25,615 bases of DNA, taken from positions 1 to 25,615 of IMG/VR virus record IMGVR_UViG_3300024339_000079. One strand, given 5' to 3'. Position numbers and translations under genes: made by a program. The DNA is from a virus. Positions within the stretch are counted from its first letter, which is position 1; every line of letters begins with the position of its first letter. The notes under the pieces were generated by a model. The model did not search any database. It was not told where the DNA came from and saw nothing but the letters and a program-made list of their open reading frames with translations. Below are positions 3,000 to 24,800 of the stretch, piece by piece.

Positions 3000-5033
3000 A
3001 TGTCTTATTTTATGGGAAAAGAGGGATTTATCTGGTGGCAAGGTGTTGTTGAAGATAGACACGATCCCCTTTATCTTGGCAGATGTAAAGTTCGTATTCT
3101 AGGGTGGCATTCAGAATTAAAAACAGATCAACCTACAAAAACATTACCTTGGGCGTATCCTGTTTCTCCGATTACTTCTGCAAGTCAAACAGGAGTAGGT
3201 ACAACTCCATTAGGACCTGTAGAGGGCACATGGGTATTAGGCTTTTATAGAGATGGAGAATCAGGTCAAGAACCTATGTTCTTTGGTACTTTTGGTGGCA
3301 TACCGGAGTTGGATGGAAAATTCAATAATCTTGAGAAGGGATTTTCAGATCCAAGACAGCCTGGGGGAGATCCAGGACACCCACTTTATCCAGATGAAAT
3401 ACCAACAAGACAATTACGTTTTGACGCAGCTTCAATTAAAGCTGGACAATCAGTTCCCAGAGAACCTGCTTCAATTATACATAATGCCACTCCCGACCCT
3501 GCTCAACACCCACAAGAAATTAAAATATCTGAGTCTGTTACACTTAAACAAGGAGCAAAACCCACTACCGATGAGGCTCATGTAAAAGGGGAATATTCTA
3601 GTTTTCCAGTAACACAATTAATTGAGTCACGCTGGAACCGGCCAGCATATACTGTTAAACTAGTAGAAAATCCAGTTCGATCTACTTTTCCTGATACTGG
3701 ATTATCTCCATTAGATAAAACTATTCCAACCTCTTTAATTTCAAATACTAGAAATTTAAATTATCTTAAAGAGCCTACTACGAATAGATTGGCAAGAGGT
3801 ATAAGAGGTAATACTCTCAAGACAGATCCTTCTATTTCAGGTATAGTTTATGAAAAAACTTTATCACGAGAACAAGGTCAAACAAACATTCCTTGTGCGA
3901 CAGGAAGTACTTGGTCTGAACCTACTCCTGCTTGGAATGCACTATATCCTTACAATCATGTTCATCAAACAGAAAGTGGACATATTGTTGAAATGGATGA
4001 TACGCCAGGATTTGAGAGACTTCATTGGTATCATCGTGCTGGTACTTTTACTGAAATTGATGCAATAGGAATTAAACATGAAAAAACTGTAAATGATCAT
4101 TATAGTATTATTTTAGGATCAAAATATTCACACATTGAAGGTGGTGATTGTCTTACGGTTGACGGTTCACAACAAGTTCTTGTTCAAGGACGTAAGAATG
4201 ATAGAATAGGAAGTTCTTATATTGTTTCTATGGGAAAAGGATCTTTTAATCTTAATAATCCTGGGAATCTTGTTGGTATTACTAGTTATGATTATACAGT
4301 ATCAGCTACAAATAAAATTACACACGCGTCTTCTCATTTTTATCGTCATTCCGGACATGCTCATCACAATACAACAGGTGAGCAAACAGATAGTGTAGGT
4401 GGAAAATGGACTATGGACGCGAAGGCATTTAGTCTTAGTACAGTAGGATCTGCTTCTGTTAATGCAGGAATGTCTTGGAGTGTTAAGGCGTCAGATTCTA
4501 TTAATGAAAGTATATTTGGATTATTACCAAGTGCTTCTATGGGATATGCGAAAAAAACTACCGCAACGTTAGGGAAGATAGGGATGGAATCTATTGATGG
4601 TTTAGCAACGGGTGGTATTGAATTTCTCTTGGGTCCTGCTGGAATTTCAGCAAGTTTTTCAATGATGCCTTTAGGTGATATAAAACTAGACGCGTTAAAT
4701 GAGATTAAGATGTCGGCAAGTTTGGGAAACTTGAAAGGGGAGACATTACTAGGGGATGTCATATTTGAAAGTTTGTTATCATCATCTAAATTAACGGTAG
4801 ATGGAGCAGCATCAATGCAAGGACTATTGGGAGAAGTAAGTGTAAGTACTACAGGTAGAGTTAAAGTCAAGGGATTAATAATTACCATGAAACAATTTAT
4901 GGATGATATAATAGATATTATAACAGAACATACACATCCTAGTGGTTCAGGGCCGACTGGTCCTCCAATGCCACCAGCATCGGTAAAATTATCATTACTG
5001 AAATCTATAAAAGTAGGACAGAGTTTTGAATAA
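3000..5033 (+). CDS. 5: Central spike protein, gp5-like, without lysozyme domain
   Basis: Product of 677 aa, the trimeric membrane-puncturing spike under the hub. Residues about 7-105 form the gp5 OB-fold: WWQGVVEDRHDPLYLGRCKV, LPWAYPVSPITSASQTGVG, GPVEGTWVLGFYRDG and FFGTFGG, then GFSDPR. T4 gp5 has its T4-lysozyme domain after this point. Here there is a Pro-rich linker of about 190 residues in which I see no lysozyme motif. The conserved neck of the gp5 C-terminal part follows (about 317-345): YPYNHV, TESGHIVEMDDTPGFERLHW. Next comes a long region of alternating hydrophobic residues, consistent with a triple-stranded beta-helix. Near the end is EHTHPSGSGPTGPP with an H644-x-H646 pair, which may bind a metal as in P2 gpV-type spike tips. 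The stop overlaps the next start (TAATG). Confidence 0.88.
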   Translation: MSYFMGKEGFIWWQGVVEDRHDPLYLGRCKVRILGWHSELKTDQPTKTLPWAYPVSPITSASQTGVGTTPLGPVEGTWVLGFYRDGESGQEPMFFGTFGGIPELDGKFNNLEKGFSDPRQPGGDPGHPLYPDEIPTRQLRFDAASIKAGQSVPREPASIIHNATPDPAQHPQEIKISESVTLKQGAKPTTDEAHVKGEYSSFPVTQLIESRWNRPAYTVKLVENPVRSTFPDTGLSPLDKTIPTSLISNTRNLNYLKEPTTNRLARGIRGNTLKTDPSISGIVYEKTLSREQGQTNIPCATGSTWSEPTPAWNALYPYNHVHQTESGHIVEMDDTPGFERLHWYHRAGTFTEIDAIGIKHEKTVNDHYSIILGSKYSHIEGGDCLTVDGSQQVLVQGRKNDRIGSSYIVSMGKGSFNLNNPGNLVGITSYDYTVSATNKITHASSHFYRHSGHAHHNTTGEQTDSVGGKWTMDAKAFSLSTVGSASVNAGMSWSVKASDSINESIFGLLPSASMGYAKKTTATLGKIGMESIDGLATGGIEFLLGPAGISASFSMMPLGDIKLDALNEIKMSASLGNLKGETLLGDVIFESLLSSSKLTVDGAASMQGLLGEVSVSTTGRVKVKGLIITMKQFMDDIIDIITEHTHPSGSGPTGPPMPPASVKLSLLKSIKVGQSFE

Positions 5034-5506
5034 TGGCTTTAGTTAAATCAATATTACAAACCGAATTGGGGACGATGTTTATGGAGCAACCTGCTACTGG
5101 TATTACGCCTGGGAGAAATATAACAAAGGCATTTAAGAATTATTTGTCTATGGCACAAAATGCGGCGGGGTTTCCATATTCTGTTGTCATGGCTGAACCG
5201 TATGGAATGAATATTGGACAAATTTTCCAAGGGATGTTACCAGTAGGAATGACAATAGGTCAAGCAGTGGGGGCACAATTATCAGCTATGTCATTAACAT
5301 TTATGAGTTCAGCACAAATAGGCCCTCCTGTAGCAGCACCTTCACATATTCCACTATTACAAATGCTATTTAATGCATATGCTCCTTCACCAATGGATTT
5401 CGGTCGTGAGCTTGGAGGTATTATGGCAGATTGGTCAAAAACTTGGGTAGTAAGTGGTATAATTCCTGGTACTCCACCAGTACCATTTTCAGGACCTTTA
5501 TCATAG
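5033..5506 (+). CDS. Unidentified methionine-rich protein after the spike
   Basis: I do not recognise this 157-aa protein. Its ATG overlaps the spike stop codon (TAATG at 5031-5035), so translation is probably coupled to the spike. It is rich in Met (13 residues) and Gly/Ala/Pro, with little charge. It has moderately hydrophobic stretches such as IFQGMLPVGMTIGQAVGAQL and a helical segment IPLLQMLFNAYAPSPMDFGR. It ends in a Pro/Gly tail, GIIPGTPPVPFSGPLS. There is no signal peptide and no convincing membrane helix. In T4-like phages this position suits a small spike- or hub-associated factor. I see no PAAR signature, so a spike-tip role is only a guess. The overlap and the clear reading frame make it very likely a real gene. 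Confidence 0.7.
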   Translation: MALVKSILQTELGTMFMEQPATGITPGRNITKAFKNYLSMAQNAAGFPYSVVMAEPYGMNIGQIFQGMLPVGMTIGQAVGAQLSAMSLTFMSSAQIGPPVAAPSHIPLLQMLFNAYAPSPMDFGRELGGIMADWSKTWVVSGIIPGTPPVPFSGPLS

Positions 5507-5515
5507 AGAAAAAAA

Positions 5516-8296
5516 ATGTCAGGAGCAATACAAAAAGAAATTGAAGAAGTTGAAAAAACACTGAAAAGTGCGCCTAATAATCATCTACTTGCACGTGAGG
5601 GAATTTTAGATTCTATTACGTTAACAAGGGAATTTGCCCAAACCTTATTAAATGCAATATGTCAGAAATTTACATCTGCTTCGGGAAATTATACTCTTGC
5701 AACTATATGTGAAAATCTCGCACAACAAAGAGCTATATGTTATGGGGCAAGAGATTTAAAAACTACTTATAAAAAATTCACACTTCCAGCATACGAAGTT
5801 GTAAACGGTGCTTTAGGACTTACAGAACCTAATACGTCTTTTATGGGAATTACAGCATCTCAAATTTTAGATGAATATCCAATTACATTAAGTTCGGTTG
5901 CTGGAACAACACAAACACAAGGAAGTAATACCTTTAGTACTTATGTTGGAGATTATTATCTCGTGAGATCAAGAGTTTCAGGAGAATTGGTAGATGCTAT
6001 AGATAATATTAATCCCTATACGACTCCAGACACAGAGATAGTTTCTGGTAACAGTATTGCTTGGGGATCTAGTGTAACGGGAGAAGAGGCAGCGAATACA
6101 TGGAATTATAGTTGGGCAAAAGCGAATATTGCATCTGTAGCTATAGTTAATTCAGGAGCATTCAATGAATTAACTACGTTGACGTTATCTGACCATTTGA
6201 CGCAAGGGAGTAATACAAATTATACTCCAGTTGGACCTGGTTATGGTGGAGTGTTTTATTTAAAGTTACACGAGGATCACGTAAACACCTTTACTATCAC
6301 TGGAACGACGACTGCAAATACAGTAGAGATTACTAATGTTTCTACTGTGGATATGGAGAAAATAAAATATGGAGATGTCATAACCGCGAGTAATATTTTA
6401 GTGGGACATTATGGTCCGACATCTATTGCTGCGGCAAAGGATTCAGAAAATAAAATTAGATTGAGTAATTTAGTTTATGATATTGGTACAGTAGAACAAT
6501 TCATGAACACTGTAACCTTAACAGGTGGTACATGGCCTACTTGGATTGATGGAGAAACTATTACTATTGCGGGAGGTGGAGGAAAAATTGTAAGTAGACC
6601 AAGTGGTATTAAATTAACTCTTTCAACTTCTGCTAATGTTGCATCTGGTACAGCATATTCATTAACATATGGTGGAAAAGCAACATCAAATGGAAGTGTA
6701 ACTCTTACAGTTAATAGTATTCCTTTTAGTTATGCAAAAGATGATATTTTTTGTCAAATAAAAGTTACCGCTGAAGGGATTGTTAAGAATCCTAATTGGA
6801 AACATACAGGTAATGGAACAGGTGGCTATAGTGGAACAAATGAGGGTCCAGATGATACGTTAAATGCTAATACATCTCAGTTTGTTGGATTATTAGGATT
6901 TTATGATCCTGATAATGGTTCAGCTAATGCTACAAATGATTTAACAAGAAGTGCTAGAGAAGATTGGGTATCTATTGGTCAAGAATATAATGAAACAGAA
7001 TATCCTTTTATAGAAACAAATCCATTTAAACCCGCAGTAGGTGCTACACATGCAACCTATGAAGTAAAAAATAGTGAATTAGTGGGAACACAACCTCCTG
7101 TATTGACACGTGATGATGTATATTCTGGTAGATATATTAGGTGGGATGTAAAGAGAGCGTCCGCGGGGGGTGCATTACCAGAACATAGATATTATACAGA
7201 CAGCGCAGAAAAGTTTTATTATGAACTACCAGCAAATGCGGGATATTCTTGTGGTACTGTTACTATAGCTGATCTTCCCATGCCTTCTACCGCGGAACCA
7301 CCCGCCGCAATAGATAAATCAGGATTATCGGGTGCTATAACAAGAGTGCAAGGAACACCTGTTATTGCAAATAGTGTTTCGGTTGGTGTAGCTGACACAA
7401 CAGATATTCCGGTAGATGATGATACAACAACCGCAGCTTTAAGTGGCATGTTCAATCCACCTAGTAACAATGCAACTATAGGAAGCTATTATAATCTTAA
7501 TGCAGATAATTTAATTTATGTTAATAGATACCATTATGAAACGGTGACTATTACCACTTCACCTGCTTGGACAGCTACAGTTGCAACAGATTCGTCCGTT
7601 TTTCCTTGTAAATATAATTTTGTACAGAAACACATATATGAGGCAGGGGGTACAGCAAATTCTACAATGAATGCTGATGTACAATTTATACGTGATACCG
7701 TAGATGATTTACAATCCATTGATGCGTTCCGTGATCCGATTGTCACAGGAGCACAAGCTGGGGGTAGTGGAATAAGTGATGATGCATTTGATACTTATAT
7801 GAATGTGGCTACAGATGCAGATTTAGCATCGTTATCTACATCATTGACAAATTTTCGTAATGCTCTTACTGCTCAAGGACGAACAGGACCTAACAATGCG
7901 AATACTGGAAAGGGGACATCTATAACTTATGCGAATACTACATGGGCGGCTTTTCATACTGAACTAGGAACGTTTGGTAGTAATTGTGGAAAGAGAGTAG
8001 CGGAAATAGATGCTCGTATTGGTGTACCAACTAGGGCGGGTACTAGATCTACAACTCGTGGAGTACCACCAGCAATTTATGTGTCAGCGATACCATCATC
8101 AAATACAACAAATGGACAAGTACCATATGGTAGATCTCTTTATAATAATATAAACTATCTATTGGGAAAAGATCTAAACTTGTTAGGAAAATTAATTGGA
8201 GATGTACAATCGTTAAGTACTCAAATTAATTTAGTAAAAGGGGATAGAAATAAATTTGAAATGTTAAATGGTAGAGATAAGGAATATAATGTCTGA
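5516..8296 (+). CDS. Large unidentified virion structural protein (926 aa)
   Basis: I cannot assign a family. The N-terminal 130 residues are mostly helical, starting with a charged helix (EIEEVEKTLKSAPNN) and followed by LTREFAQTLLNAICQKF and AICYGARDLKTTYKKF. Residues about 130-430 are Thr/Ser/Gly-rich and beta-like, including LTLSTSANVASGTAYSLTYG, which resembles the ends of the repeats in the 2434-aa protein downstream. A middle region contains VGLLGFYDPDNGSANATND and YIRWDVKRASAGGALPEHRY. The C-terminus is helical again: GRSLYNNINYLLGKDLNLLG, then INLVKGDRNKFEMLNGRDKE. The helix-beta-helix layout suggests a baseplate or fibre-network component. The ribosome site is weak (GAGAAAAAAA just before the ATG). 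The last 8 bases overlap the next gene. Confidence 0.7.
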   Translation: MSGAIQKEIEEVEKTLKSAPNNHLLAREGILDSITLTREFAQTLLNAICQKFTSASGNYTLATICENLAQQRAICYGARDLKTTYKKFTLPAYEVVNGALGLTEPNTSFMGITASQILDEYPITLSSVAGTTQTQGSNTFSTYVGDYYLVRSRVSGELVDAIDNINPYTTPDTEIVSGNSIAWGSSVTGEEAANTWNYSWAKANIASVAIVNSGAFNELTTLTLSDHLTQGSNTNYTPVGPGYGGVFYLKLHEDHVNTFTITGTTTANTVEITNVSTVDMEKIKYGDVITASNILVGHYGPTSIAAAKDSENKIRLSNLVYDIGTVEQFMNTVTLTGGTWPTWIDGETITIAGGGGKIVSRPSGIKLTLSTSANVASGTAYSLTYGGKATSNGSVTLTVNSIPFSYAKDDIFCQIKVTAEGIVKNPNWKHTGNGTGGYSGTNEGPDDTLNANTSQFVGLLGFYDPDNGSANATNDLTRSAREDWVSIGQEYNETEYPFIETNPFKPAVGATHATYEVKNSELVGTQPPVLTRDDVYSGRYIRWDVKRASAGGALPEHRYYTDSAEKFYYELPANAGYSCGTVTIADLPMPSTAEPPAAIDKSGLSGAITRVQGTPVIANSVSVGVADTTDIPVDDDTTTAALSGMFNPPSNNATIGSYYNLNADNLIYVNRYHYETVTITTSPAWTATVATDSSVFPCKYNFVQKHIYEAGGTANSTMNADVQFIRDTVDDLQSIDAFRDPIVTGAQAGGSGISDDAFDTYMNVATDADLASLSTSLTNFRNALTAQGRTGPNNANTGKGTSITYANTTWAAFHTELGTFGSNCGKRVAEIDARIGVPTRAGTRSTTRGVPPAIYVSAIPSSNTTNGQVPYGRSLYNNINYLLGKDLNLLGKLIGDVQSLSTQINLVKGDRNKFEMLNGRDKEYNV

Positions 8297-8465
8297 AGAA
8301 ACTCCTAAATGGGAAAAGGCATCTCCAAACAGAGGAGATATGCAAAGTTTATTAAAGAAGACCAAAAAATTTGCTGAGATGTATCTGAAAATTGTAGAAG
8401 AAAAAAAAACAGAGTGGGAAGATCACTTAGAAGCTCAAAAAGAAAAGCAAGGATCAAATGGCTGA
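8289..8465 (+). CDS. Small charged helical protein (58 aa)
   Basis: A short gene that overlaps both neighbours: its ATG at 8289 lies before the stop of the 926-aa gene (8296), and its TGA (8463-8465) lies after the start of the next gene (8458). AAGGA at 8279-8283 is the likely ribosome site. An in-frame ATG at 8268 is a possible longer start, but it would sit upstream of that site. The product is almost entirely polar: SPNRGDMQSLLKKTKKFAEM, then YLKIVEEKKTEWEDHLEAQK. This predicts one long amphipathic or coiled-coil helix. I know no family for it. A small adaptor or chaperone for one of the two large flanking proteins would fit, but that is inference. Confidence 0.6.
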   Translation: MSEETPKWEKASPNRGDMQSLLKKTKKFAEMYLKIVEEKKTEWEDHLEAQKEKQGSNG

Positions 8466-10464
8466 ATGGAAAAAATGGACAATAGCAGATGCTGGTACAA
8501 TTAAAGACATTGCTGACACTGCTAAAGAACTAGCTGAAGGACTTAAAACGGCGTCTGACCTTGCTGTAACTGCTACTACGGTGACAAAGTGGATAGCAGA
8601 ACTTGAATCAATTAATCCATTTATAAAGGCATTAGAATTAATTGCCGATGAACTAATTAAAGCTATCCAAGATACGAGAAATGCAGGATACTATTATCTC
8701 CTTGTTGATCCTTATTCTGGAAGACCTAATGTTACACCAATTAATACAAAAGTTAAGGGGTTTGAATGGTGTAGGAATAGTTCCGGACAACGATTATATT
8801 GGAATCCTAACTCAGAAAATCCAGAAGCTTCAATCACCATAAGTGTTCCACCATTTTTATCATCAACATTTGAACCCAAGTTAACGACACCACGAAAAAT
8901 AGTAGTGGGTGGATATAATCCATATGTGGATCAAATGATTGATCCTTTTACTTCCATGACTCCGTATCCAACATATTCGGCGACAAAGGTAGTTGAAACT
9001 ATAGTGGGAGCATTTGGAGATGAAGGAGATGTTGCAAAATATGAAGCAAAGGATGGGGAGTTTCGGCAGGGAAAACCTGACACTGGTGACATAGTATTTA
9101 ATGATGAAGGTGTAGCGTTTACTGGATGGGATAGGGACATAAAATTCGGATTACAATTATGGAATATGGGTGCTATGAAAGCAGACGGGAAAGACCACGA
9201 TGATACAGCCAGGAAAAATGGAGGATGGAAAATTGATAGGGAGAAAATTAATATTAAAATCCAATCAGGACGACCAAATGCGCAAGGGTCTTCAGTTGAA
9301 ATTGAAAAAATAACCTATGGAGGAAAGACTTTAAAGATTGAATCTGCGAGTTCAGCTTTAGTATTTATTATAGCTGCTCCATCGTATAAGGTGTTCGCAG
9401 AAAGTATGCAAGCTTTTGCGAAATTATTTTCAGATATTCCAGATTTCGCGGATTCGTCTGTTCAAAATATTATGGATCATTATAATGACATTTTTGTAAC
9501 ACCAAAAGCACAAGTAATCAACATGACTATGTGTGATTCAAAATATGGATTATTCACAGTAGGAGATGTTATAAGAGGAGAGCGTGGGGGATTGGGTATA
9601 ATAACAAAAGTAGACAAGATAGTTGTAACTTCAATGGTTGCTATGATGAATTATACACTAACAGATGATCGGGGTGAGACAAAACTTAAATATCAAGAAG
9701 TTGATTCGAATAGTAGTGGACGATATAAAGATATGGAAATAACACTAACTCCTATTGCCACCAAAGAGGCGTCAAATATAGAGAGTTGGGTTATAAATGA
9801 TGCAGTGTATGAACAAGAAGCTAGAGGTATTTGGGGAACTGCTGCTGAAAATTATCCAAACTATCAGATTAAGGGTCAAGATACTATGACTTATCCAGGT
9901 GATCGTTCAAGGAGTGGAGAGAAGAGAAACTTGGGAGGAGAAATATCGAAAAGAATATATCCAAAATATGGTACAGTGGCTTTAGAAAAATTAGAAATTC
10001 CACTTGAGCCTGTAGCACCAAATTTTAGTGGAATTCAAATGAGTCAATGTATTCCACATTGGAATACATTTTTTGATCTGTTGGAAAATTTTGTAGTGGG
10101 AGTAAAGGGGTATATTAGTACACCAACAGATTTTATTCAAGATCAAATTGATATGCTTAACAGAGTTGTAAAAGAATTAGAAGATATGATAAAGACTATT
10201 GAGAAGTTTTTAAAATTCTTCTCAGTAGATTTATCCAAAATGGGAATATATGCTGTTCATATAAAAGGTAATACAGCTGGAAATGCGGGGCTAGCATCTG
10301 CAATTGGAAATGCTGATGGTTTACCAACAGGTTTGGATTATGCTGCTGGTATTGTATTTGTTGGAATGGACATTGCAGGAGTAAATGCACTTGATTTAAC
10401 TTTAGCTAATCTTATAATGGGAACGGGTGGAACGGCAGCAGAAACAGAGCTGGCGGAACTTTAG
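8458..10464 (+). CDS. Unidentified virion protein with helical ends (668 aa)
   Basis: Not assigned to a named family. The N-terminal 90 residues are helical (IKDIADTAKELAEGLKTASD, PFIKALELIADELIKAIQDT). A beta-rich body follows: GYYYLLVDPYSGRPNVTPIN, GFEWCRNSSGQRLYWNP, VGGYNPYVDQMIDPF, then FTVGDVIRGERGGLGIITKV, which looks like a beta-barrel core. The C-terminal 130 residues hold a long amphipathic helix (QIDMLNRVVKELEDMIKTIE), then GIYAVHIKG and the less polar DYAAGIVFVGMDIAGVN, ending in a Gly/Ala-rich, acidic tail. The helix followed by a hydrophobic AAGxVFV segment resembles the ends of some phage tail structural proteins I have seen, without a firm function. The start overlaps the 58-aa gene by 8 bases, with AAGGA at 8449-8453. 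A 56-base gap separates it from gp25. Confidence 0.7.
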   Translation: MAEWKKWTIADAGTIKDIADTAKELAEGLKTASDLAVTATTVTKWIAELESINPFIKALELIADELIKAIQDTRNAGYYYLLVDPYSGRPNVTPINTKVKGFEWCRNSSGQRLYWNPNSENPEASITISVPPFLSSTFEPKLTTPRKIVVGGYNPYVDQMIDPFTSMTPYPTYSATKVVETIVGAFGDEGDVAKYEAKDGEFRQGKPDTGDIVFNDEGVAFTGWDRDIKFGLQLWNMGAMKADGKDHDDTARKNGGWKIDREKINIKIQSGRPNAQGSSVEIEKITYGGKTLKIESASSALVFIIAAPSYKVFAESMQAFAKLFSDIPDFADSSVQNIMDHYNDIFVTPKAQVINMTMCDSKYGLFTVGDVIRGERGGLGIITKVDKIVVTSMVAMMNYTLTDDRGETKLKYQEVDSNSSGRYKDMEITLTPIATKEASNIESWVINDAVYEQEARGIWGTAAENYPNYQIKGQDTMTYPGDRSRSGEKRNLGGEISKRIYPKYGTVALEKLEIPLEPVAPNFSGIQMSQCIPHWNTFFDLLENFVVGVKGYISTPTDFIQDQIDMLNRVVKELEDMIKTIEKFLKFFSVDLSKMGIYAVHIKGNTAGNAGLASAIGNADGLPTGLDYAAGIVFVGMDIAGVNALDLTLANLIMGTGGTAAETELAEL

Positions 10465-10520: not shown

Positions 10521-10913
10521 ATGGCTGTAAAACACGGAAAAGATTACGTAGATTTCGACATGGACTTCACTCCTCATCCTGCGCACGGAGATCTATCGCA
10601 AGTTAAAAAAAATAATGTTATTAATCGGTCTATTAATAATATAATGAAAACAAATGCGTATGAAAGATTATTTCAACCAGATGTTCAAGGTGGAATATCA
10701 AATTTGCTATTTGAAAATTTTGGCCCCTTAACTGATTCAAGATTACAATCAGCTATAAAACATGCAATTAATACGTATGAACCTAGAGCCATTGTTAAGA
10801 AAGTAGACATAACACGGCTAGAAGATGATAACGCATATCAAATCTACATTGAATATCAACCGGATAATAGTTCGGAAACAGCAAGTACAGAAGTTTACTT
10901 GGAAAGGGCATAA
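10521..10913 (+). CDS. 25: Baseplate wedge subunit gp25
   Basis: Product of 130 aa, against 132 aa for T4 gp25. This is the most conserved sheath-initiator protein of contractile tails. It binds gp6 in the wedge and provides the strand onto which the first sheath subunit locks. The gp25 motif is plain: YVDFDMDFTPHP near the N-terminus, VINRSINNIMKTNAYERLFQ, then GISNLLFENFGPLT, and the hallmark EPR triplet at residues 87-89 in INTYEPRAIVKKVDI. AAGGGA just upstream serves as ribosome site. The gp6 start lies five bases after the stop, the same 25-6 order as in other contractile tails. Confidence 0.95.
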   Translation: MAVKHGKDYVDFDMDFTPHPAHGDLSQVKKNNVINRSINNIMKTNAYERLFQPDVQGGISNLLFENFGPLTDSRLQSAIKHAINTYEPRAIVKKVDITRLEDDNAYQIYIEYQPDNSSETASTEVYLERA

Positions 10914-12805: not shown

Positions 12806-15800
12806 ATGGCTGAAAAGAAAATAAAAGATAGAAAGGATATTTCAACGTTAATAGAAACTCTAGTGCCGGAGTTTGTAACAGCGGAACATCCGAAGATGAA
12901 AATCTTCATCGAAAAATATTATGAGTTTATGGAATCCCATCAAGTTTATTTTGAGGGAATTAATTTCAATGAATATAAACTTGTACAAGAAGGTATCGAT
13001 GACGCTTCAATAGAACCAGACTATTGGATTTTTGAAGATGAGATTAATACAAAATTGATGCCGGATGGTGATCCTAATGAATTCTATGATCCAAAGGTTT
13101 TAGAAGCTGCAATAGTAAATCACCGTATCCAATTAGAATCACAACGTGATACCTCAAAAGATAATGAATTACAATTTGTAATAGGTGAAACTGTTTATGG
13201 TAATACTACCGATGCAGAAGCGATTATTACTGGTGTATCAGGAAACACTATTGCCTTTTTAAAACCTACCACTAATACAAATTTCACATACGGCGAAGAA
13301 CTTACAGGAGTTGATTCTCGTGCTTGGACAACCTTTGCTAATGGTGTTTTAGCTGGTGTTTTTCCAGAAGGATCTATAGAGGGGTTTCGTTCAAGGGGAG
13401 CAATTGCCGCCACAAAAGAATTGGTAGATTTACAAGATATTGATAGAACGGTAGAAGGTCTTATTGATGATTCTTGGAAGAAAGAATTTTATACTCATGT
13501 TCCCAAACAAACCGTAACAGACAGGAGAAAACTTCTTAAGCAAATGAAAGAAGTTTATCGATCAAAAGGTGGAGAGGCTTCTTTTGATTGGTTATTTAAA
13601 TCTCTTTTTAATTCTCAAGATGTAGATTATTATTATCCTAAAAATGACTTGATGAGATTGTCTGATGGTAAATGGATAAAAGATAAAACCGTTAAAATTT
13701 TGACGGATACCGCAAATAATATTCATTTATTTGAGGGTAAAACACTCAGAGGATTAACATCTAATGCAACAGCAATAGTAGAAAAAACTATTACCAAAAC
13801 AGTAGGTGCAGTTCAAGTTACTGAATTGTATTTGTCTAAAATTGTTAAAGGTACAGACCGGTATGGAACTTTAGGATATTTTCAAACATATGAAGCAGTT
13901 TCAACTGAACCAGATGCGAATAATGATGTAGCTCTTGGATTTTGTTCAGGAATTGTAGAAGATGTAACTATTGAATATGGTGGTAGTAACTATGCACTTG
14001 GAGATGAATTAATATTTGTTGCTGGTGGTGGAGCAGAGGCTAAAGCCGAAGTTACTGAACTTGTAGATGATATACTTAAAGGATTTCGTTTAATAGATTC
14101 TGGTGATGGATATTTTGTAGGAGATACTTTAGATTTTATTGATGGGGGTACTGGTGGTGCTGGTGCAGCTGCAACTGTTGGTACTATTATCCCCACAGGA
14201 TCTGTTTTAAAAAATTCTGACCTAATTTATGATGTATCTTCATTAGCGATTAATTCCAATAATGTTATCAAGCCATTATATTCTAATTCCTCCTTGACTT
14301 TCACTGCTGGAATTAAAGAATCTTCCGGTAAAGTATGGGGTTCTACAGGGCCATTTTTTAACTCACAATTTTTTGCAGTAGGTGATCTTCTCAAAATACA
14401 AAAACATATTAAAAGTACCGAACACTTTACTGCTACTAGTGTTGGAACTACACTGACTCAAACAGGAACTACTGTTACTCTTTCAAATCCAGTTAGTCCA
14501 GAAGAAGCTATAAACATGATTGGTGGTAAAATTGTTTATGCAAATGGTAATAATAATATTATTGCTGGACAAGGAAATACTACTACACTTTATACTGTAG
14601 ATACACATACAATTAGTTCAGCTCAAAATTTTGATATTTATTATGGTGATGATTCGGTTCAAGGTACGGTTATAGGTGCGAATAGTAGTCTTGTGTTGTA
14701 CACTCTTAGTTCGATGTCTTATGATGAGAATTTTGGAAATCAAACTATACACAATTTCGCAAATAATGATTCGGTTATTTTATATGACACTAAAAAGAAT
14801 AGACTTCATGGTGCACTAAATGCCAATGCTAGTGATGCAGCATTAACACATACTGGACATACTTTTGATATAGGTAACACACCAGCAAATGTCACATCAA
14901 CTACAACAATTAATATAGGTGATGATTTTAGAGTGGGTGGAGGTTATGTTTCACAACAAGTTAATACATCTTATAACGTAGCTCCTGTATTAACTTATAC
15001 TAAACATGACTATGGTTCTATTAATACTCTTGCTATTACCAATGGTGGTCTTGGTTATAAACGTTTACCGTTAATTACGGTTGCTAATAACTTTATGATG
15101 AGTTTATCGAACTCATTAGAACACACAGGTTCTAATAATTCCTTGCTTAATGTAAACTTACATTCTTTTGATACGGGAACAATTACTCAATTAGGACAAA
15201 CTCTTACATTAAGTGGTGGATTATTTCCTGAAGTAGATTCAAATTTATTACACATAACATACGCAAATGGTGCTGAAAATTATATTACTACTGTAACTAA
15301 TACTACATCATTAGAAATGGCAAATACTGCAGACATTAGTTCAGCAGCTTCATATAATCTCACATACATGGCTGGTGCGAATACTTTTCCACATCATGCT
15401 CTTATCTATAATGATGATTATTCCTCAAGAGGATTAGTTTTAGATTTTATTGATGAACCCTCTAAATTCACATTTCCAAGAAGTCAAGGTTCAGTAAATG
15501 AAGGAACATATGTAGAAAAACCTGGACAAACAGGTTATATGAGAAAGGTAATTGCAAATGGTAATACCACTCTCCGTGTAGATATGACCACTAGTCAAGA
15601 TTTCTCTCCCGTAACTACTTTTCTACGAGTAGAGGGCTGGGGATCAGCGGCTGGTGAATTTGGAAGACTTCTTTTCGAAGATGGCTCTGCTATTTACCCA
15701 GAAGATTCCATAAGTTTCGTAGTACTAGAAGATGACTTCAGTCTTTTAACTGAGGATGGAAATCGTATATATGGTGAAGATGTTAGTAGTGATAGAATTA

Positions 15801-18800
15801 CTGCTCATGATGCATTGATTTCAACAACATATGCAGAAGGAACATTTACACAATCTAATAATATTATTACTGGAATTTCTACTATATTCCCTAATGAACT
15901 TGTACGTGGTACTTTTTCATATCTTGATAGTGAAGATGTAGTTATTGGAACATCCATCATTACAGGATATACCAACTCGACTTCTATTATTGTTGAAGAT
16001 TCTAACACAATATCTTCAGCAGCAAGTTATTCTATTTCGTATAATCCCACAATTGTTTATGGTTCTAATACTTCTGTCACAGCAGTAGCAAGTGGAGCGG
16101 GTAATAGAACAGTAACAGTAACCGAAGAAGGTCACAAAAAAACTGGTGTCAATAAAATTAAACTCATAGGTTCCGATAAAGAAATATTTAATGGAACTTA
16201 TACAATCGATTCCATAACTTCAAATACTTGGACTTATACTCTTCCTGAAGATACTTCAGATCAGCCAGGTACAGGACTCTCTGCGAAATTTGTACTTACC
16301 ACATATCTTGACAATGCTAACGCAGCTGTTATGGATACTTCATTAAAAGGTAATAATGCTATTATTGAAGTTGCTAGCATTGCGTCTGGATCAATCAAAG
16401 CATTAGCAGTTACAGATGTTGGAGCGGGATATTCTTCTAAACCTAGAGTTACTAATCCATCAGGTGATAATAATGCTTTACTAACAGCTGTTATTGGTGC
16501 ATTTGCTCAATATCCTGGAAAATATTATGGTACACAAGGAAGACTTGATGATGCACCTAGAATACAAGATAGTAGATATTATCAAAGTTTTTCTTATGTC
16601 TTAAAAGCACCTGTTGATACTACATCATATCGTGCTCATGTAGATAGGTTAGTCCATCCAGCTGGAATGAAGATGTTTGGAGAGTTGGCAATAAACCTTG
16701 AAGCTTCTGTAGAACTTTTTAAATCTGGTGTACACGCCGGATCTGATGGTAATCCAAAAGATGTAGATAATTATGATGACTCAGGATATGAATTGGGTCG
16801 ACCAGATTATTTACAACTTCATACTCCACGATTTCATCCTATTATTTTGACACGTCAGCAACACTTTAATATGGAGGTGAAAGAATATTTCCAACCAGAA
16901 GTAGAGATTTTTACAGCTGATGCACCACATCATGCAATGGATGGTAGGTTAGATGTTTCAGATGATGTGAACATGTTGAGAGAAGATTTTAGAGATGTTC
17001 AAGCAATGGTACGTACTATTGCTCCTCAACTATCTTATATAATGAATGATACTTTAGGAAATGATGAGCAATATGAAATAGGTGAAGTGGTATATCAAGG
17101 AGCTTCATATTTTACTAGAGCGAGACAAGCTGAAGTTTCTGGTTGGAATCATGCAACTAAAACACTAACTCTTATTAATCAAGTTCCTCTTGGGGATTTT
17201 GTATTAAATCTAAGTATCAAAGGTTATATCTCAGGATCAGATTATCCGATTCTTAAAGAAAATACTTTACCGTCGGGTACGATTACAGAACTAGAACATG
17301 ATATTCAATTGGGTGATACGGTACAAATTACTAGAGCAACAGAAGATTATTGGAATGGTGAATATGTAGTTCAAACAACCCCCACCACTAATACTTATAC
17401 TGTCTTTTTGGGGAGAGGTGATCCTGGAGAAAATGCTACCGCCACCGCGCAAACTGCACCAAGTGGGGGATCTTGGTTAAAAGTTGAAACGAAAACATTA
17501 GCCGATCCTTTCCGTGCTAGTTCTACCAATTATAATTCCCCCTTTAATGGAAATATTCTTTATGAACTTAATAATGGATTGTATGGTCAAATTCTTTTAG
17601 AATCTGGTGGATCTTTCCTTTATCCTAAAATACAATTTCCTGAAGCTGATTCTGGAACAGTTTCCATTGACATGAGTTTTAGTAGTGATCTTCTATTGGA
17701 AGATCATATTAATCCAGATACAGGAAATCATGAAGATGGATATGTCTTACATGAAGCACATGGTGAATCCGTAGGAATGGGTCCTACAAGATATATGGCT
17801 TTGGAAGATGATACAGAGGGAATTCAATGGAGTTATGAACGTGGTCTTCTTGGTCATGAAACTCTTAGTATTCCTTATATGGAAACAACCATAATATCAA
17901 CGAAAGTTGAATCTTTGCGAGAGGGTATTTTAACGGAGGATAATCTAAACAATATTGTATATGAAGATGTTCTTAATACCGTTTATATTCCAGGAATGGA
18001 ACCTGAATTAATTCCAGCAACAAGAATGGTTGTTGAGAGACCTCCTGTAAATTTCAATTTTGGTGAAGTAGAATACAACCTTGCAGATTCCATAGGTTGG
18101 CATTTGATGATGGAAGATGAAGATCACTTTATAGCAGAAGGTGATGAGACGACTGATGTATTACCAAGATTTCTTACAGAAGAAGGTCAACTCAGACAAG
18201 GAGCTTTTGACGTAGAGATACACCTTTTTGATCAAATGGGATATCATTTGATGATGGAAGATGATTCACACTTAATAGTTGAGGGTGATGAAGCTACAGA
18301 TTTAGCTAGATTTCTTACAGAAGAAGGACATGTTAAAAAACCATTTGGAGAAGTTCAATTCAACATTCCTCTACAAGTCAACAAGTATGATGATGAACAA
18401 TTAGCCTTAGAAAATACTAATCATCCACGAAATTGGGGAGAATATCATTATGGAGATTATTTTGAACAGAACGAACTCTTAGAATTTGAAACAGCTTCTG
18501 GTGGTGGTATCATTGGACTTAATTATATTCCAAATTCTATTCCTTGGGCTCATCATGAACTAGAATATGTTTTAGATGCAAATCTACAAAGTGAACTAAT
18601 TTCAACGGATCATGAATATGAAATTCAACGAGAAACTTCGTTGGGATATCATTTGATGATGGAAAATGAAGATCATTTTATAGTAGAAGGTGATGAGACG
18701 GCTGATGTATTACCTAGATTTCTTACAGAAGAGGGGCATGTCAAAAAATCAGATCTTAAAGAAATATTTATAGACAGATCAGGTATTTATGCCGATAACC

Positions 18801-20110
18801 CAATGCGAGTTATGACAACACAAAACCTTGTAGATCCTTGGACTCCGATGGGTTATCGTAACAGTTCTCAAATAAGTGATTGGGCGGATAGAACAATAGG
18901 TCAAATGGCTTTTGGATTACAAGTTGGTCGCCCTAGAGGACCTGCAAAGAAATATCCAACTGGTAAATATTCTCAACATCGATTACTTAATAGTGGTGCT
19001 GATGTTTTTGATCAACAAAACGGACAAGCAAATAGTGTACCTTTTCTTGGTCAAGGTATTGTTGGTGCACAAATTAATATGAATGATCCTGATCGTATTG
19101 GAAATTTTAATCAATATTGGGAACAAGTATCAGATCATATGTCTTGGTCTTTTGACGGACCAATAGGCTCGTTGCATGGTGCAAAACTGATTCAGCCTGG
19201 TATGTTAACTGTTCCGTCTGACCCAGCGGTAATCCACCATTTTGCACCAACTGCTAACAGTCAATTTCGTTCTACCCCTATTTCTAAAGTGGTTAAGGAA
19301 CACAAAACCGCTGAGAGTGATATCTCAATACAGAAATTAGTTACTGAAGCGGGAGAACATTTTCAATTAGAAGACGCATCAGGAAGAATTCTTCTTAGTG
19401 GTGCTATGGCAATTAGAGCGGCATATTCAAACTTTACTACACTAGCGGGTATGGTGGGTCAAATTACTATGTTACCAAATAATACAGTGGTGACGGGTAC
19501 TAACACATTATTCTCATCTCAACTTGCAACAGGTTCTGTATTTCAAACTTTTGAAGAAAGTGTAATATTAGAGGATGATGAAGGCATAGTGATGGAATCC
19601 AATGAACGAATCATGCATGAAGATATTACTATGAATGGAACCATTGAGTTTGACAATGATCAAACCTTAGCTTTTTATGAAAGTACACCTATGGATCAAG
19701 TTAAATGGTTTATGGCTACTGAGGAGACAATCTTTACGTACGCTGGATGGAAAATTGATCAAGGTAGTGGTTATGACCAAGAAGCTAAAACGGATACGCC
19801 AGGATCTTTTTGGTTGTGCGGAGAAGATTCAAATACAGAGGAAGAAATAGAATTAGAAGTAAATACCCCAAATCCAGGAGGACTCAATAATAGAGTAATC
19901 ACTGCGGAAAATACTTGGTGGCAAGAAAATATAATTTGGGAAGATACCACTAAAATGTTATTATCAGATGCTGCTGAATATAAAGTGGCATCAATTACTA
20001 ATGATACACAATTAACAGTAACACGGTCTGGTATGGATGGAACAGGATCTGTACCTTTTTGGAAGCAAACAACCGAGGCGGAAGTAACTGCCACAGTTTC
20101 GGGTCTATAA
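12806..20110 (+). CDS. Giant baseplate protein in the gp7 position (2434 aa)
   Basis: At 2434 aa it is more than twice the length of T4 gp7 (1032 aa), whose place between gp6 and gp8 it takes. The N-terminal region has FIEKYYEFMESHQVYFEGIN and, at about residues 240-290, KQMKEVYRSKGGEASFDWLF followed by SLFNSQDVDYYYP. I recall this pattern from large baseplate/tail proteins of marine T4-like phages. Residues about 387-470 hold two Gly-Tyr repeats. Residues about 547-1080 hold three beta repeats of 64-68 aa. Around 1235-1305 is a conserved block with RIQDSRYYQSFSYVLKAP and VHPAGMKMFG. The C-terminal half carries acidic LxxED repeats, three of them long and near-identical (1764-1981). It should form the outer wedge and perhaps a receptor-facing surface. 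The gp7 identity rests on position and the N-terminal pattern. Confidence 0.7.
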   Translation: MAEKKIKDRKDISTLIETLVPEFVTAEHPKMKIFIEKYYEFMESHQVYFEGINFNEYKLVQEGIDDASIEPDYWIFEDEINTKLMPDGDPNEFYDPKVLEAAIVNHRIQLESQRDTSKDNELQFVIGETVYGNTTDAEAIITGVSGNTIAFLKPTTNTNFTYGEELTGVDSRAWTTFANGVLAGVFPEGSIEGFRSRGAIAATKELVDLQDIDRTVEGLIDDSWKKEFYTHVPKQTVTDRRKLLKQMKEVYRSKGGEASFDWLFKSLFNSQDVDYYYPKNDLMRLSDGKWIKDKTVKILTDTANNIHLFEGKTLRGLTSNATAIVEKTITKTVGAVQVTELYLSKIVKGTDRYGTLGYFQTYEAVSTEPDANNDVALGFCSGIVEDVTIEYGGSNYALGDELIFVAGGGAEAKAEVTELVDDILKGFRLIDSGDGYFVGDTLDFIDGGTGGAGAAATVGTIIPTGSVLKNSDLIYDVSSLAINSNNVIKPLYSNSSLTFTAGIKESSGKVWGSTGPFFNSQFFAVGDLLKIQKHIKSTEHFTATSVGTTLTQTGTTVTLSNPVSPEEAINMIGGKIVYANGNNNIIAGQGNTTTLYTVDTHTISSAQNFDIYYGDDSVQGTVIGANSSLVLYTLSSMSYDENFGNQTIHNFANNDSVILYDTKKNRLHGALNANASDAALTHTGHTFDIGNTPANVTSTTTINIGDDFRVGGGYVSQQVNTSYNVAPVLTYTKHDYGSINTLAITNGGLGYKRLPLITVANNFMMSLSNSLEHTGSNNSLLNVNLHSFDTGTITQLGQTLTLSGGLFPEVDSNLLHITYANGAENYITTVTNTTSLEMANTADISSAASYNLTYMAGANTFPHHALIYNDDYSSRGLVLDFIDEPSKFTFPRSQGSVNEGTYVEKPGQTGYMRKVIANGNTTLRVDMTTSQDFSPVTTFLRVEGWGSAAGEFGRLLFEDGSAIYPEDSISFVVLEDDFSLLTEDGNRIYGEDVSSDRITAHDALISTTYAEGTFTQSNNIITGISTIFPNELVRGTFSYLDSEDVVIGTSIITGYTNSTSIIVEDSNTISSAASYSISYNPTIVYGSNTSVTAVASGAGNRTVTVTEEGHKKTGVNKIKLIGSDKEIFNGTYTIDSITSNTWTYTLPEDTSDQPGTGLSAKFVLTTYLDNANAAVMDTSLKGNNAIIEVASIASGSIKALAVTDVGAGYSSKPRVTNPSGDNNALLTAVIGAFAQYPGKYYGTQGRLDDAPRIQDSRYYQSFSYVLKAPVDTTSYRAHVDRLVHPAGMKMFGELAINLEASVELFKSGVHAGSDGNPKDVDNYDDSGYELGRPDYLQLHTPRFHPIILTRQQHFNMEVKEYFQPEVEIFTADAPHHAMDGRLDVSDDVNMLREDFRDVQAMVRTIAPQLSYIMNDTLGNDEQYEIGEVVYQGASYFTRARQAEVSGWNHATKTLTLINQVPLGDFVLNLSIKGYISGSDYPILKENTLPSGTITELEHDIQLGDTVQITRATEDYWNGEYVVQTTPTTNTYTVFLGRGDPGENATATAQTAPSGGSWLKVETKTLADPFRASSTNYNSPFNGNILYELNNGLYGQILLESGGSFLYPKIQFPEADSGTVSIDMSFSSDLLLEDHINPDTGNHEDGYVLHEAHGESVGMGPTRYMALEDDTEGIQWSYERGLLGHETLSIPYMETTIISTKVESLREGILTEDNLNNIVYEDVLNTVYIPGMEPELIPATRMVVERPPVNFNFGEVEYNLADSIGWHLMMEDEDHFIAEGDETTDVLPRFLTEEGQLRQGAFDVEIHLFDQMGYHLMMEDDSHLIVEGDEATDLARFLTEEGHVKKPFGEVQFNIPLQVNKYDDEQLALENTNHPRNWGEYHYGDYFEQNELLEFETASGGGIIGLNYIPNSIPWAHHELEYVLDANLQSELISTDHEYEIQRETSLGYHLMMENEDHFIVEGDETADVLPRFLTEEGHVKKSDLKEIFIDRSGIYADNPMRVMTTQNLVDPWTPMGYRNSSQISDWADRTIGQMAFGLQVGRPRGPAKKYPTGKYSQHRLLNSGADVFDQQNGQANSVPFLGQGIVGAQINMNDPDRIGNFNQYWEQVSDHMSWSFDGPIGSLHGAKLIQPGMLTVPSDPAVIHHFAPTANSQFRSTPISKVVKEHKTAESDISIQKLVTEAGEHFQLEDASGRILLSGAMAIRAAYSNFTTLAGMVGQITMLPNNTVVTGTNTLFSSQLATGSVFQTFEESVILEDDEGIVMESNERIMHEDITMNGTIEFDNDQTLAFYESTPMDQVKWFMATEETIFTYAGWKIDQGSGYDQEAKTDTPGSFWLCGEDSNTEEEIELEVNTPNPGGLNNRVITAENTWWQENIIWEDTTKMLLSDAAEYKVASITNDTQLTVTRSGMDGTGSVPFWKQTTEAEVTATVSGL
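13964..14190 (+). repeat. Two Gly-Tyr beta repeats in the giant protein
   Basis: Two successive units: YGGSNYALGDELIFVAGGG with a following Ala/Glu run, and SGDGYFVGDTLDFIDGG followed by GTGGAGAAATVG. Both follow the plan aromatic/Gly-x-G-x-x-Y-x-x-G-D-x-L-x-F-x-x-GG and then small residues. Weaker units occur at 15027-15095 (NGGLGYKRLPLITV) and 16394-16507 (VGAGYSSKPRVTN). A similar motif appears in the neighbouring gp8. Confidence 0.65.
14444..14644 (+). repeat. Beta repeat, copy 1, in the giant protein
   Basis: This unit of 67 codons starts GTTLTQTGTTVTLS and ends TISSAQNFDIYY. It shares the opening GTxTQ and the closing ISSAxxYxIxY pattern with copies at 15176 and 15839. It probably folds as a small beta-sandwich. 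Confidence 0.6.
15176..15367 (+). repeat. Beta repeat, copy 2, in the giant protein
   Basis: This unit of 64 codons starts GTITQLGQTLTLSGGLFPE and ends ISSAASYNLTY. The middle (ITYANGAENYITTVTNTTSL) matches the YANGNNNI stretch of copy 1. Confidence 0.65.
15839..16042 (+). repeat. Beta repeat, copy 3, in the giant protein
   Basis: This unit of 68 codons starts GTFTQSNNIITGISTIFPNE and ends ISSAASYSISY, almost the same ending as copy 2. It follows an acidic stretch (LLFEDGSAIYPED, LLTEDGNRIYGED) at 15659-15790 that belongs to the ED-repeat class. Confidence 0.65.
18095..18748 (+). repeat. Three long ED repeats near the giant protein's C-terminus
   Basis: Three copies start at 18095, 18239 and 18644 (residues 1764, 1812 and 1947), each reading G-(W/Y)-HLMME-(D/N) then (I/L)-x-(A/V)-EGDE and ending RFLTEEG. 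Copies 1 and 3 differ at only a handful of bases over roughly 87 aligned bases. Copy 2 is more diverged. All keep the reading frame, so they are internal duplications, not insertions. Confidence 0.85.
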
Positions 20111-21893: not shown

Positions 21894-24800
21894 ATGCCAT
21901 TATCTACTAATTTTAATGTAACGCCGTATTATGATGATTTTGATGAGGCTAAAAACTATTATCGTATACTCTTTAAACCAGGGTATGGAATACAAGCGAG
22001 AGAACTAACTCAACTACAAACTGCTTTACAAAAGCAAATTGAATTGGTTGGAGCTCATAGTTTTAAAAATGGTAGTAAAGTCCTTGGCGGAGATATAACT
22101 CTAGATACCGATATTAAATCTCTTCAATTAGAGCTACAATATTTGGGGTCTAATATAAATGCCTCTTCCTTTATAGGAAAAACTATTGTTGGAGCCACCT
22201 CTAACGCCAGAGCGAGAGTAGTTACATCTCAATCTGCAACTACGCTATTACAACCCATATTAATGTTTCATTATTTGGGTGGTGATACTTTTGTTGACGG
22301 CGAAGTAATACAAAATGAAGTTGTAGCTCCAGCAGTACCAGATTTTTCTGCAACAACTATTAGTCTTGACGGCCCGTCCGCCACGTCTAATGCTGTTGCA
22401 GATGGTTCTATTGTTAGTATTGATAATGGTGTATTTTTTATTGATGGTAATTTTGTTCTTAATCCAGCAAATACTATAATTCTTGATACTGCTAATACTA
22501 CTCCTTCTGGTAGAATTGGTTTAGAAATAGCCGAAACAATTAAGACAAGTGATGATGATAATACTTTACTTGATCCCGCAGATGGTTCTTTCAACTATGC
22601 TGCACCTGGAGCAACACGACTTGAAGTAGCATTATCTTTAGTTAAAAAAGAGATCAATGTTACAGATCCAATTTCACGAGTCGCAGATCCTAAATTTATA
22701 CAATTATTAAAAATTATTGATGGAATTAAACATGAGAGTATTAAATATCCCCCATATCTAGCAATTGAAAAAACTCTTACTAAAAAATCCAATCAAAAAT
22801 CAGGTGATTTTACTATAACACCTTTTAGTTTAAAACTAGATGATCATAGAGGAATATCTGGTTTGACAGCAAATGCTGGTTTGGCTGGTACAACTCTATA
22901 TGGTAATAATACACGATTTACTACAGAATTAAGTATAGGGGATAAACTTTATCTAGGATCTAATACTACAACAGCTGAAGTTACTTCTATTGCGAATAAT
23001 TCAAGACTGACAATTGCCTCTACACTTTCTGCGGCAACTGAAGGATTGAAAATTTACAATGAATCTAAAATTCAAGCTGGATTGAGTTCCGGTAAGGCTT
23101 TGGTTGATGGGCAAGAATACGAAAGTGTTTCTACTCAATTTCTAGACATTAATAAGGGGCGTGATACTACTATAGATACCGGTTATAGTATGGGAATAGA
23201 AGTGGGTAATTATATTATGCTTGATGGAGTGAATAGTTTATTTGATGTTGGTTCACATGAAATCATTCATCTACATAATGCAAAACACGCTAATGTTAAT
23301 ACAGCTGGTGGAAACCATCTCGGTAATACTTATTATCAATCTACAATGATTGGTACTGCAAGAATTCGTAGTTTACAATGGGCTTCTGATTCTGGTAATA
23401 CTACATATGCAGATTCCAATCACTCTAATTATAAAGCATATCTTTATGATATTGATACTTCTAATTCTGTTACTGGTACGGTTGGTGGAGCTAGTTCAAA
23501 TACAAGAATAATTCAATTGTTCTCCAATTCATCTTCTTATGTAAATAACGTATATCAAGGTTCTACTATAACTGTCAATACAGTTAATGGAATTGATACG
23601 ACTAGTGATTTAAGATCGATAGATGATTATGTTGCAAATTCTACAGGACATTTTGCTACCGTCAATTCAGTATTTTCTCAAGCTACTATTGCTAATAGTA
23701 CTTATGCTATTGCATTTACTGTAGCGGATACTAAATCAATAACAGTTGCGACATGGCCAACAACAAATCTTGCTGATTCACAAGTTACCATAAATTCCTA
23801 TGCGGATATTTCTTCAACTGGAAAATATGGTGATAGTGATTCTGGTAAGACACTTCTAAGAGACACAAATATAAATTCATTGGTTTATCCTTTACCACAA
23901 AGTCCTGTTAAGGGAACTGTAATAACAGCAAACACCGTACATTACCAGTTCAAACTAGTAGAGAAAAATCTTACTTCTTCTGCTGCGGGTAAATTGACAT
24001 TAACTTTAGGTACTCCAAACTATGAATTTCTTCCTACAACAGGAACATTAACCACTAAACAAGCAAGAGAGAATATTATTGTAGTTGTTAAGACAACCGG
24101 ATCTGCTCAAACATTTGTTAATTCATGTGCTACTGGTTTAAGTCTTCCAGGTGCAACAGGAACAAGACTTGTAGTAGCGGGAGAATGGTTAGATTTGGGT
24201 GCACGTGATGTGTCGGGTGTTTCTGTAAGACCTGTTGTTATTAGTGCAGATAAACACACTATAGAAATATATTGTAATACTTCTGCGGCTTTTACTGCAG
24301 ATATTATCTATGGTGCATCTAGTTCAACAACAAGAAAAGAGCCTGGACCTAGAACTAAGTCTATGATTTCAGGTAATGGTTCTCATATCGGAGCATATGC
24401 TGGTGGTCTACCTACAACACATGTAGCTAGTGGACAATTTTATTTTACTACTCCTAATATAACTCAAACAAATACCGATGAAATTGTAGTATCTGATGCA
24501 TTTAATTTGACAAAAATCGTTGATTCAGGGGTAATTTCTGTTCCAGTAACGAATACTATGATGACGGCAACAGCCAATGATATTACTCACATGTATGAGT
24601 TTGATTCTGGACAAAGAGATAATTTTTATGATCATGCGAGAATTAAACTGAAATCTGGTTATCCAGGTCCCACTGGACAGATTATGGTTGTAGTGGATTA
24701 TTTTGATTGGGATGGAGCTGTAGGATATTTTTCAGTAGATTCTTATCCTACATCTGGTGCATGGAATCAATCGGATGTTGCATCTGCGAAAAAATTTAGT

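Follow-up and report, generated by a model that had tools for sequence, protein, structure and literature searches.

The window analyzed here is the entire 25,615-base IMG/VR record IMGVR_UViG_3300024339_000079, from an uncultured marine T4-like phage. Between the genes for a gp5-like central spike and gp25, it carries a block of four genes encoding proteins of 157, 926, 58 and 668 amino acids (aa). Comparison with related loci revealed that these are group-specific genes of this baseplate slot, made up of a constant pair (58/668) and an exchangeable pair (157/926). The explanation we favor, tentatively and with a little less than even confidence, is that the block comprises two modules of the baseplate center: a 157/926 spike-tip cassette that would serve an apex-type gp5, and a 58/668 pair that would provide a hub part and its small partner. 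The features referred to below are as follows (window coordinates).

3000..5033, + strand: gp5-like central spike; OB domain and beta-helix match T4-type gp5
4929..4940, + strand: His-Thr-His-Pro of the putative C-terminal apex of gp5 (HTHPSGSGPTGPP)
5033..5506, + strand: 157-aa protein with three internal repeats, gene 1 of the putative tip cassette
5060..5164, + strand: first repeat in the 157-aa protein, spanning about residues 10-44
5207..5320, + strand: second repeat in the 157-aa protein, spanning about residues 59-96
5351..5464, + strand: third repeat in the 157-aa protein, spanning about residues 107-144
5516..8296, + strand: 926-aa acidic protein (isoelectric point 4.9) without known family, gene 2 of the putative tip cassette
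6443..6691, + strand: domain of the 926-aa protein (residues 310-392) common to residues 788-856 of a 2434-aa protein
8289..8465, + strand: charged protein of 58 aa, whose gene is the small partner of the 668-aa gene
8458..10464, + strand: 668-aa protein, constant member of the gp5-gp25 slot
10521..10913, + strand: gp25, right border of the block (Pfam, 5.2e-10; PHROG 261, 6.2e-33)

All four open reading frames (ORFs) of the block lie on the + strand, and our ORF calls agree exactly with the gene ends and junctions of the original prediction. The gp5 and 157-aa genes meet at TAATG (5031-5035), 9 bases (5507-5515) separate the 157- and 926-aa genes, and 8-base overlaps (8289-8296 and 8458-8465) join the last three genes, whose translation may be coupled. 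As the frames and gene order recur across many contigs, down to 21-30% protein identity, the four genes are more than a chance arrangement. The longest ORF of the small gene starts at 8268 and encodes 65 aa; since the starts in its relatives fall near 8289, the 58-aa version was preferred. The longest gp5 ORF begins with TTG at 2985, and the alternative ATG at 3000, with GGAGG before it, is the likelier start.

Two gene pairs and two spike-tip types

Sixty loci were found in IMG/VR for the 157-aa family and 60 for the 668-aa family, in addition to two GTDB contigs. Where loci reach far enough, the gene order is gp48-gp53-gp27-gp5-157-926-58-668-gp25-gp6. The junction between gp5 and the 157-aa gene, determined with the longest ORFs at 60 loci, is a 1-base overlap in 47, a 17-base overlap due to an earlier in-frame start in 12, and a spacing of 4 bases in one (some of the loci counted are on one contig, and a few repeats were left out by hand). 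For counts of co-occurrence, 202 loci were reduced to 138 DNA clusters, 63 of which show both gp5 and gp25 and serve as the basis of the numbers that follow.

All four families lie between gp5 and gp25, in a fixed order, in 27 of the 63 clusters. The 668-aa family was found in this interval in 38 clusters, and 11 of these lack 157/926, with PAAR present instead in 10 of the 11. These ten clusters carry no HxHP motif in gp5, and the 58-aa family was recognized in four of them; one cluster has 58/668 with neither 157/926 nor PAAR nor HxHP. The other 25 clusters are devoid of all four families and of HxHP (19 carry PAAR and 6 do not). Within its group the block is constant between gp5 and gp25, all four-gene clusters (27/27) having it there, but it is not an indivisible whole. 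In a sister group (L030, L189-L196 and L198-L202), gp5 is followed, in loci reaching far enough, by genes for a ~750-900-aa protein, a ~95-aa PAAR protein and, in most cases, a small protein of 51-70 aa; the 668-aa family and gp25 come next. These ~780-aa proteins, 40% identical on average in an alignment of 11, have no similarity to the 926-, 157- or 668-aa profiles. Because 58/668 occurs without 157/926, which is then replaced by the ~780-aa protein plus PAAR, the block consists of two modules, and the single sub-assembly originally proposed is not supported.

The gp5 of the window was recognized by Pfam Gp5_OB (5.6e-16) and PHROG 430 (8.9e-74). Its residues 15-124 (OB domain) match T4 gp5 and residues 309-486 (beta-helix) match the KP1 spike chain, while no lysozyme domain was reported for it in Pfam and PDB-chain profile searches. 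Its C-terminal part carries an HxH motif, which, according to excerpts of PMC11448403, marks the apex domain of central spikes, the histidines holding an iron ion. The gp5 C-terminus carries HxHP in 27 of 27 four-gene clusters (e.g., HTHPTGTGPSGPP), and a PAAR hidden Markov model (HMM) built from seven sequences detected no PAAR in the slot of any of the 27. Conversely, HxHP was present in none of the 29 PAAR-bearing clusters, and 7 clusters have neither. The end of T4 gp5 is blunt and capped by the PAAR protein gp5.4 (excerpts of PMC4576200 and PMC10715212); one PAAR of pseudo-trimeric symmetry is described as capping a trimeric beta-prism (PMC10715212). As HxHP goes with 157/926 and blunt gp5 goes with PAAR, the two cassettes match the two tip designs. 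This link between gp5 tip type and PAAR, drawn from sequence comparisons, favors a place for the block at the central spike over one at the periphery. In L033, a gp5-like fragment has at its end what looks by eye like a PAAR and may be a fused tip.

On the gp6 tree (46 rows), the group having PAAR plus the 668-aa family falls between L031 and the main 157/926 clade, giving two state changes. A single clade of the 157/926 type was rejected by the approximately unbiased (AU) test (p 0.0023). This test had the rows of unknown tip type inside the group; the group was defined with the tree already known, and the L031 branch is long. Another AU result (p 5e-50) is void, as the window's own cluster and other rows of unknown tip type had been kept out of the group. 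Median divergence relative to gp6, calculated for 17 sequences (the window and 16 loci), was 1.21 for 157, 1.62 for 926, 1.68 for 58 and 1.72 for 668, and 1.15, 1.36 and 1.48 for gp5, gp53 and the gp27-like protein, respectively. Most block genes have diverged more quickly than the core, though not in the manner of a hypervariable adhesin.

Proteins of the block

None of the four proteins has a credible family in Pfam or PHROGs (best E 0.008, over 19 residues), and profiles of the 157-, 926- and 668-aa proteins had no credible sequence match to PDB chains among the matches listed. The earlier statement that none of them matches a T4 baseplate subunit thus stands at the level of sequence. When 50,697 phage records were searched by tblastn with the 157-, 926- and 668-aa proteins, no relative was found, and divergent relatives used as queries gave no credible match in isolated phages. 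The gp6 of the window matches 1184 phage records, with the best (Melnitz, HTVC008M and Mosig) at 39%; as gp6 finds so many records and the block none, the collection reaches the group but not the block. Consistent with the proposed group specificity, the 157, 926 and 668 profiles were each found in 0 of 12 sequences, namely the genomes of 10 isolates and two long contigs (131 and 145 kb), in searches run without a positive control. A literature search returned no title or abstract opening naming these proteins. A profile-profile comparison of 44 ORFs from the gp5-gp25 interval of 12 loci yielded matches in L030-L032 only.

The 157-aa protein contains three copies of a motif of about 35 residues, with a step of about 49 residues. 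When its family (38 sequences) was cut into thirds, these aligned with one another (E 2.3e-5 for repeats 1/2, 9.7e-5 for 1/3 and 2.4e-5 for 2/3; HHalign probabilities of 58-76%), and each pair beat 40 of 40 column shuffles. Small proteins, two in tandem in L032 (85 and 87 aa) and one in L034 (79 aa), match repeat 1 when aligned jointly (E 5.5e-6, above 30/30 shuffles); they match repeat 3 weakly (E 0.007) and repeat 2 not at all (13 of 30 shuffles were equally high). The tandem genes of L032, at 8936-9190 and 9193-9453, lie 5' of gp25, and their products weakly resemble PHROG 5576 (E about 0.001-0.002).

The 157-aa protein does not match the Pfam PAAR profile, and its 38 family sequences share no invariant Cys or His (His105 is nearly invariant); according to an excerpt of PMC8651086, metal is absent from some PAARs. 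Its gene adjoins the spike gene, as expected for a spike cap. By analogy, a three-repeat chain at a trimeric spike recalls PAAR and may meet the trimer in a like manner. Combining these points, the 157-aa protein might be a non-PAAR three-repeat chain, docked in a single copy on the trimeric tip in a large uncultured marine T4-like group. It might have been triplicated from a one-repeat protein of about 85 aa, which would survive in L032 and L034, with whole tip cassettes, each including its own gp5 C-terminus (apex-type beside 157/926, blunt beside ~780/PAAR), being swapped as units over a constant 58/668. Taken as a whole, this combined reading is doubtful.

Residues 310-392 of the 926-aa protein share a domain with residues 788-856 of the 2434-aa protein (blastp E 9e-5; HMM independent E 2.2e-8). 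Insertions distinguish the 926-aa protein among its relatives, and its distances follow gp6 distances least of nine genes (correlation 0.69). In the slot of L032, positions 5136-8927 encode a protein of 1263 aa that contains Big_5 Ig-like domains (Pfam, 8.6e-10) and resembles neither the 926-aa nor the ~780-aa proteins.

The 58-aa protein is very hydrophilic (grand average of hydropathy, GRAVY, -1.47). In 41 of 44 loci (not all on separate contigs), its gene and the 668-aa gene share exactly 8 bases; counted as DNA-distinct clusters, the figure is 34 of 45. L032, whose gp6 is 42% identical, shows the same 8-base overlap between a gene for 57 aa and one of the 668 family. The 668-aa protein was modeled by AlphaFold2 (AF2) with 30 sequences (predicted local distance difference test, pLDDT, 66.8; predicted template modeling score 0.56); a previous model with 9 sequences was poor (pLDDT 42.4) and was not used. 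The model predicts long N- and C-terminal helices, a central beta-barrel (about residues 349-513) and a C-terminal alpha/beta domain, with barrel residues 352-459 mostly at pLDDT 70-89. Foldseek searches of PDB and BFVD with this model gave nothing at E 0.001 or better among the matches listed. VIA-align placed residues 349-513 on a baseplate chain of T4 (5iv5_BJ) and KP1 (9f4a_A0) with a Z of 6.2 over 77-79 residues. This match does not identify the fold, since Z values under 8 say little and those of EF-Tu-like barrels come close to it (Z 5-5.6). A proton-activated chloride channel filled the top VIA-align rows (Z 8.3, 77 residues); it was set aside, as the match reflects the long paired helices.

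Competing explanations for the block

According to the explanation we favor, the four proteins are presumably present in the virion, where: the 157- and 926-aa proteins would form a spike-tip cassette, encoded directly 3' of gp5 and occurring only with an HxH-apex gp5, while the ~780-aa protein and PAAR would form the alternative cassette that pairs with a blunt gp5; the 157-aa chain, whose repeats look helical, could bind singly around the three-fold gp5 tip, with the 926-aa protein as its larger partner; and the 58/668 module would remain constant under either tip type, with the 668-aa protein belonging to the hub or inner wedge and the small 58-aa protein, translated together with it, serving as its partner (a chaperone or a helical plug). 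Several points weigh against this. An HxH apex already closes the tip, so such a gp5 can do without a cap; this alone may account for the missing PAAR, in which case 157/926 might be unrelated to the tip. The association amounts to two state changes on the gp6 tree and not to 56 independent loci, and L032 has 58/668 with neither tip type. The gene orders of the cassettes also differ, with the large gene before PAAR in one and 157 before 926 in the other. Finally, the 668-aa model, with a pLDDT of just 66.8, has no clear match.

A peripheral location of the large proteins is possible, though somewhat unlikely; the 926-aa protein would then be a beta-rich part of a fibre or for receptor binding, carried by the 668-aa protein as a component of the wedge. 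The domain shared with the wedge-like 2434-aa protein, the insertions in the 926-aa protein and its low correlation with gp6 all agree with such a role, as does the alignment of the 668-aa barrel with the baseplate chain of T4 and KP1, which is about 1000 residues long; however, that alignment is subject to the reservations given above. Moreover, the block sits between hub and inner-wedge genes, and the 926-aa protein diverges at 1.62 times the gp6 level, not far from the gp27-like hub protein at 1.48. Alternatively, one or more of the proteins, chiefly the 58-aa protein, may be an assembly factor that leaves the virion. Its size, its hydrophilicity and the position of its gene directly 5' of the 668-aa gene, usually overlapping it, would suit this, but small coupled proteins may be structural too, and we regard this as unlikely. 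The least probable of the alternatives is that the block is accessory cargo, i.e., non-structural genes parked in a plastic gp5-gp25 gap of marine T4-like phages. In HTVC008M and Mosig this gap is about 7 kb and holds an oxygenase gene together with small and other genes; excerpts of PMC3037559 describe a hot spot near gp5, and excerpts of PMC7029224 a plastic region splitting the baseplate module in some cyanomyophages. Nevertheless, the four genes are on one strand and nearly touching, with their order fixed in 27 of 27 clusters and kept over large divergence; two of the proteins are as large as 668 and 926 aa; and a domain is shared with the neighboring wedge-like protein.

Two closures of the spike tip are known, a separate PAAR cap and a built-in HxH apex. 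Both designs occur here in one closely related group, each linked to unrelated partner genes of its own while the core stays constant, and this would make the partner requirements of each design testable by comparison. New protein families of the baseplate slot can be named for this uncultured marine phage group, although the machine itself is of a known kind.

Known systems and neighboring genes

The window gp5 resembles T4 gp5 in its T4-type OB domain and beta-helix and in having tip genes, here putative ones, beside it; the sister group also has a true PAAR, like gp5.4. Unlike T4, the window group lacks a PAAR gene in this slot, its gp5 is of the apex type, and the 157-aa protein lacks similarity to PAAR. 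The His-x-His near the C-terminus is shared with the apex-type spikes of P2 (gpV) and phi92, but in the window it occurs on a T4-type gp5, is followed by about 30 residues, and has two genes directly downstream. HTVC008M, Melnitz and Mosig are the nearest isolates by gp6 (38-39% identity), and HTVC008M and Mosig have a similar frame (gp48-gp53-tail protein-gp5 ... gp25-gp6). In these three phages, however, the 157, 926 and 668 families were not found, and PAAR is present in the slot. The Sinorhizobium phages phiM12 and phiN3 also have an accessory gene directly after gp5 and before gp25, but it encodes a peptidase (M15 in the phiM12 annotation), and the block families were not found in them.

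The T4-like baseplate cluster spans the record, from the end of gp48 through gp53, the gp27-like gene, gp5, the block, gp25 and gp6 to further wedge genes. The gp27-like hub protein matches PHROG 350 ("tail protein"). The 2434-aa protein (12806-20110), encoded 3' of gp6, matches wedge PHROGs; it is followed by a PHROG 438 wedge protein, by its position gp8-like, and then by an open 1240-aa gene (21894-25613) matching PHROG 358 (2.3e-216), a family of unknown function.

Among the other loci, gp6 of L195 (4924-6760) appears as two overlapping ORFs, due to a frameshift or an assembly error. Two contigs with the block, L159 and L160 (the latter with part of it), fall into metagenome-assembled genomes of Chloroflexi and Marinimicrobia; as binning of phage contigs is unsafe, no host was drawn from this. 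In L060, the gp5-gp25 slot holds a 466-aa endolysin-like gene (8134-9534; PHROG 181, 3.3e-94).

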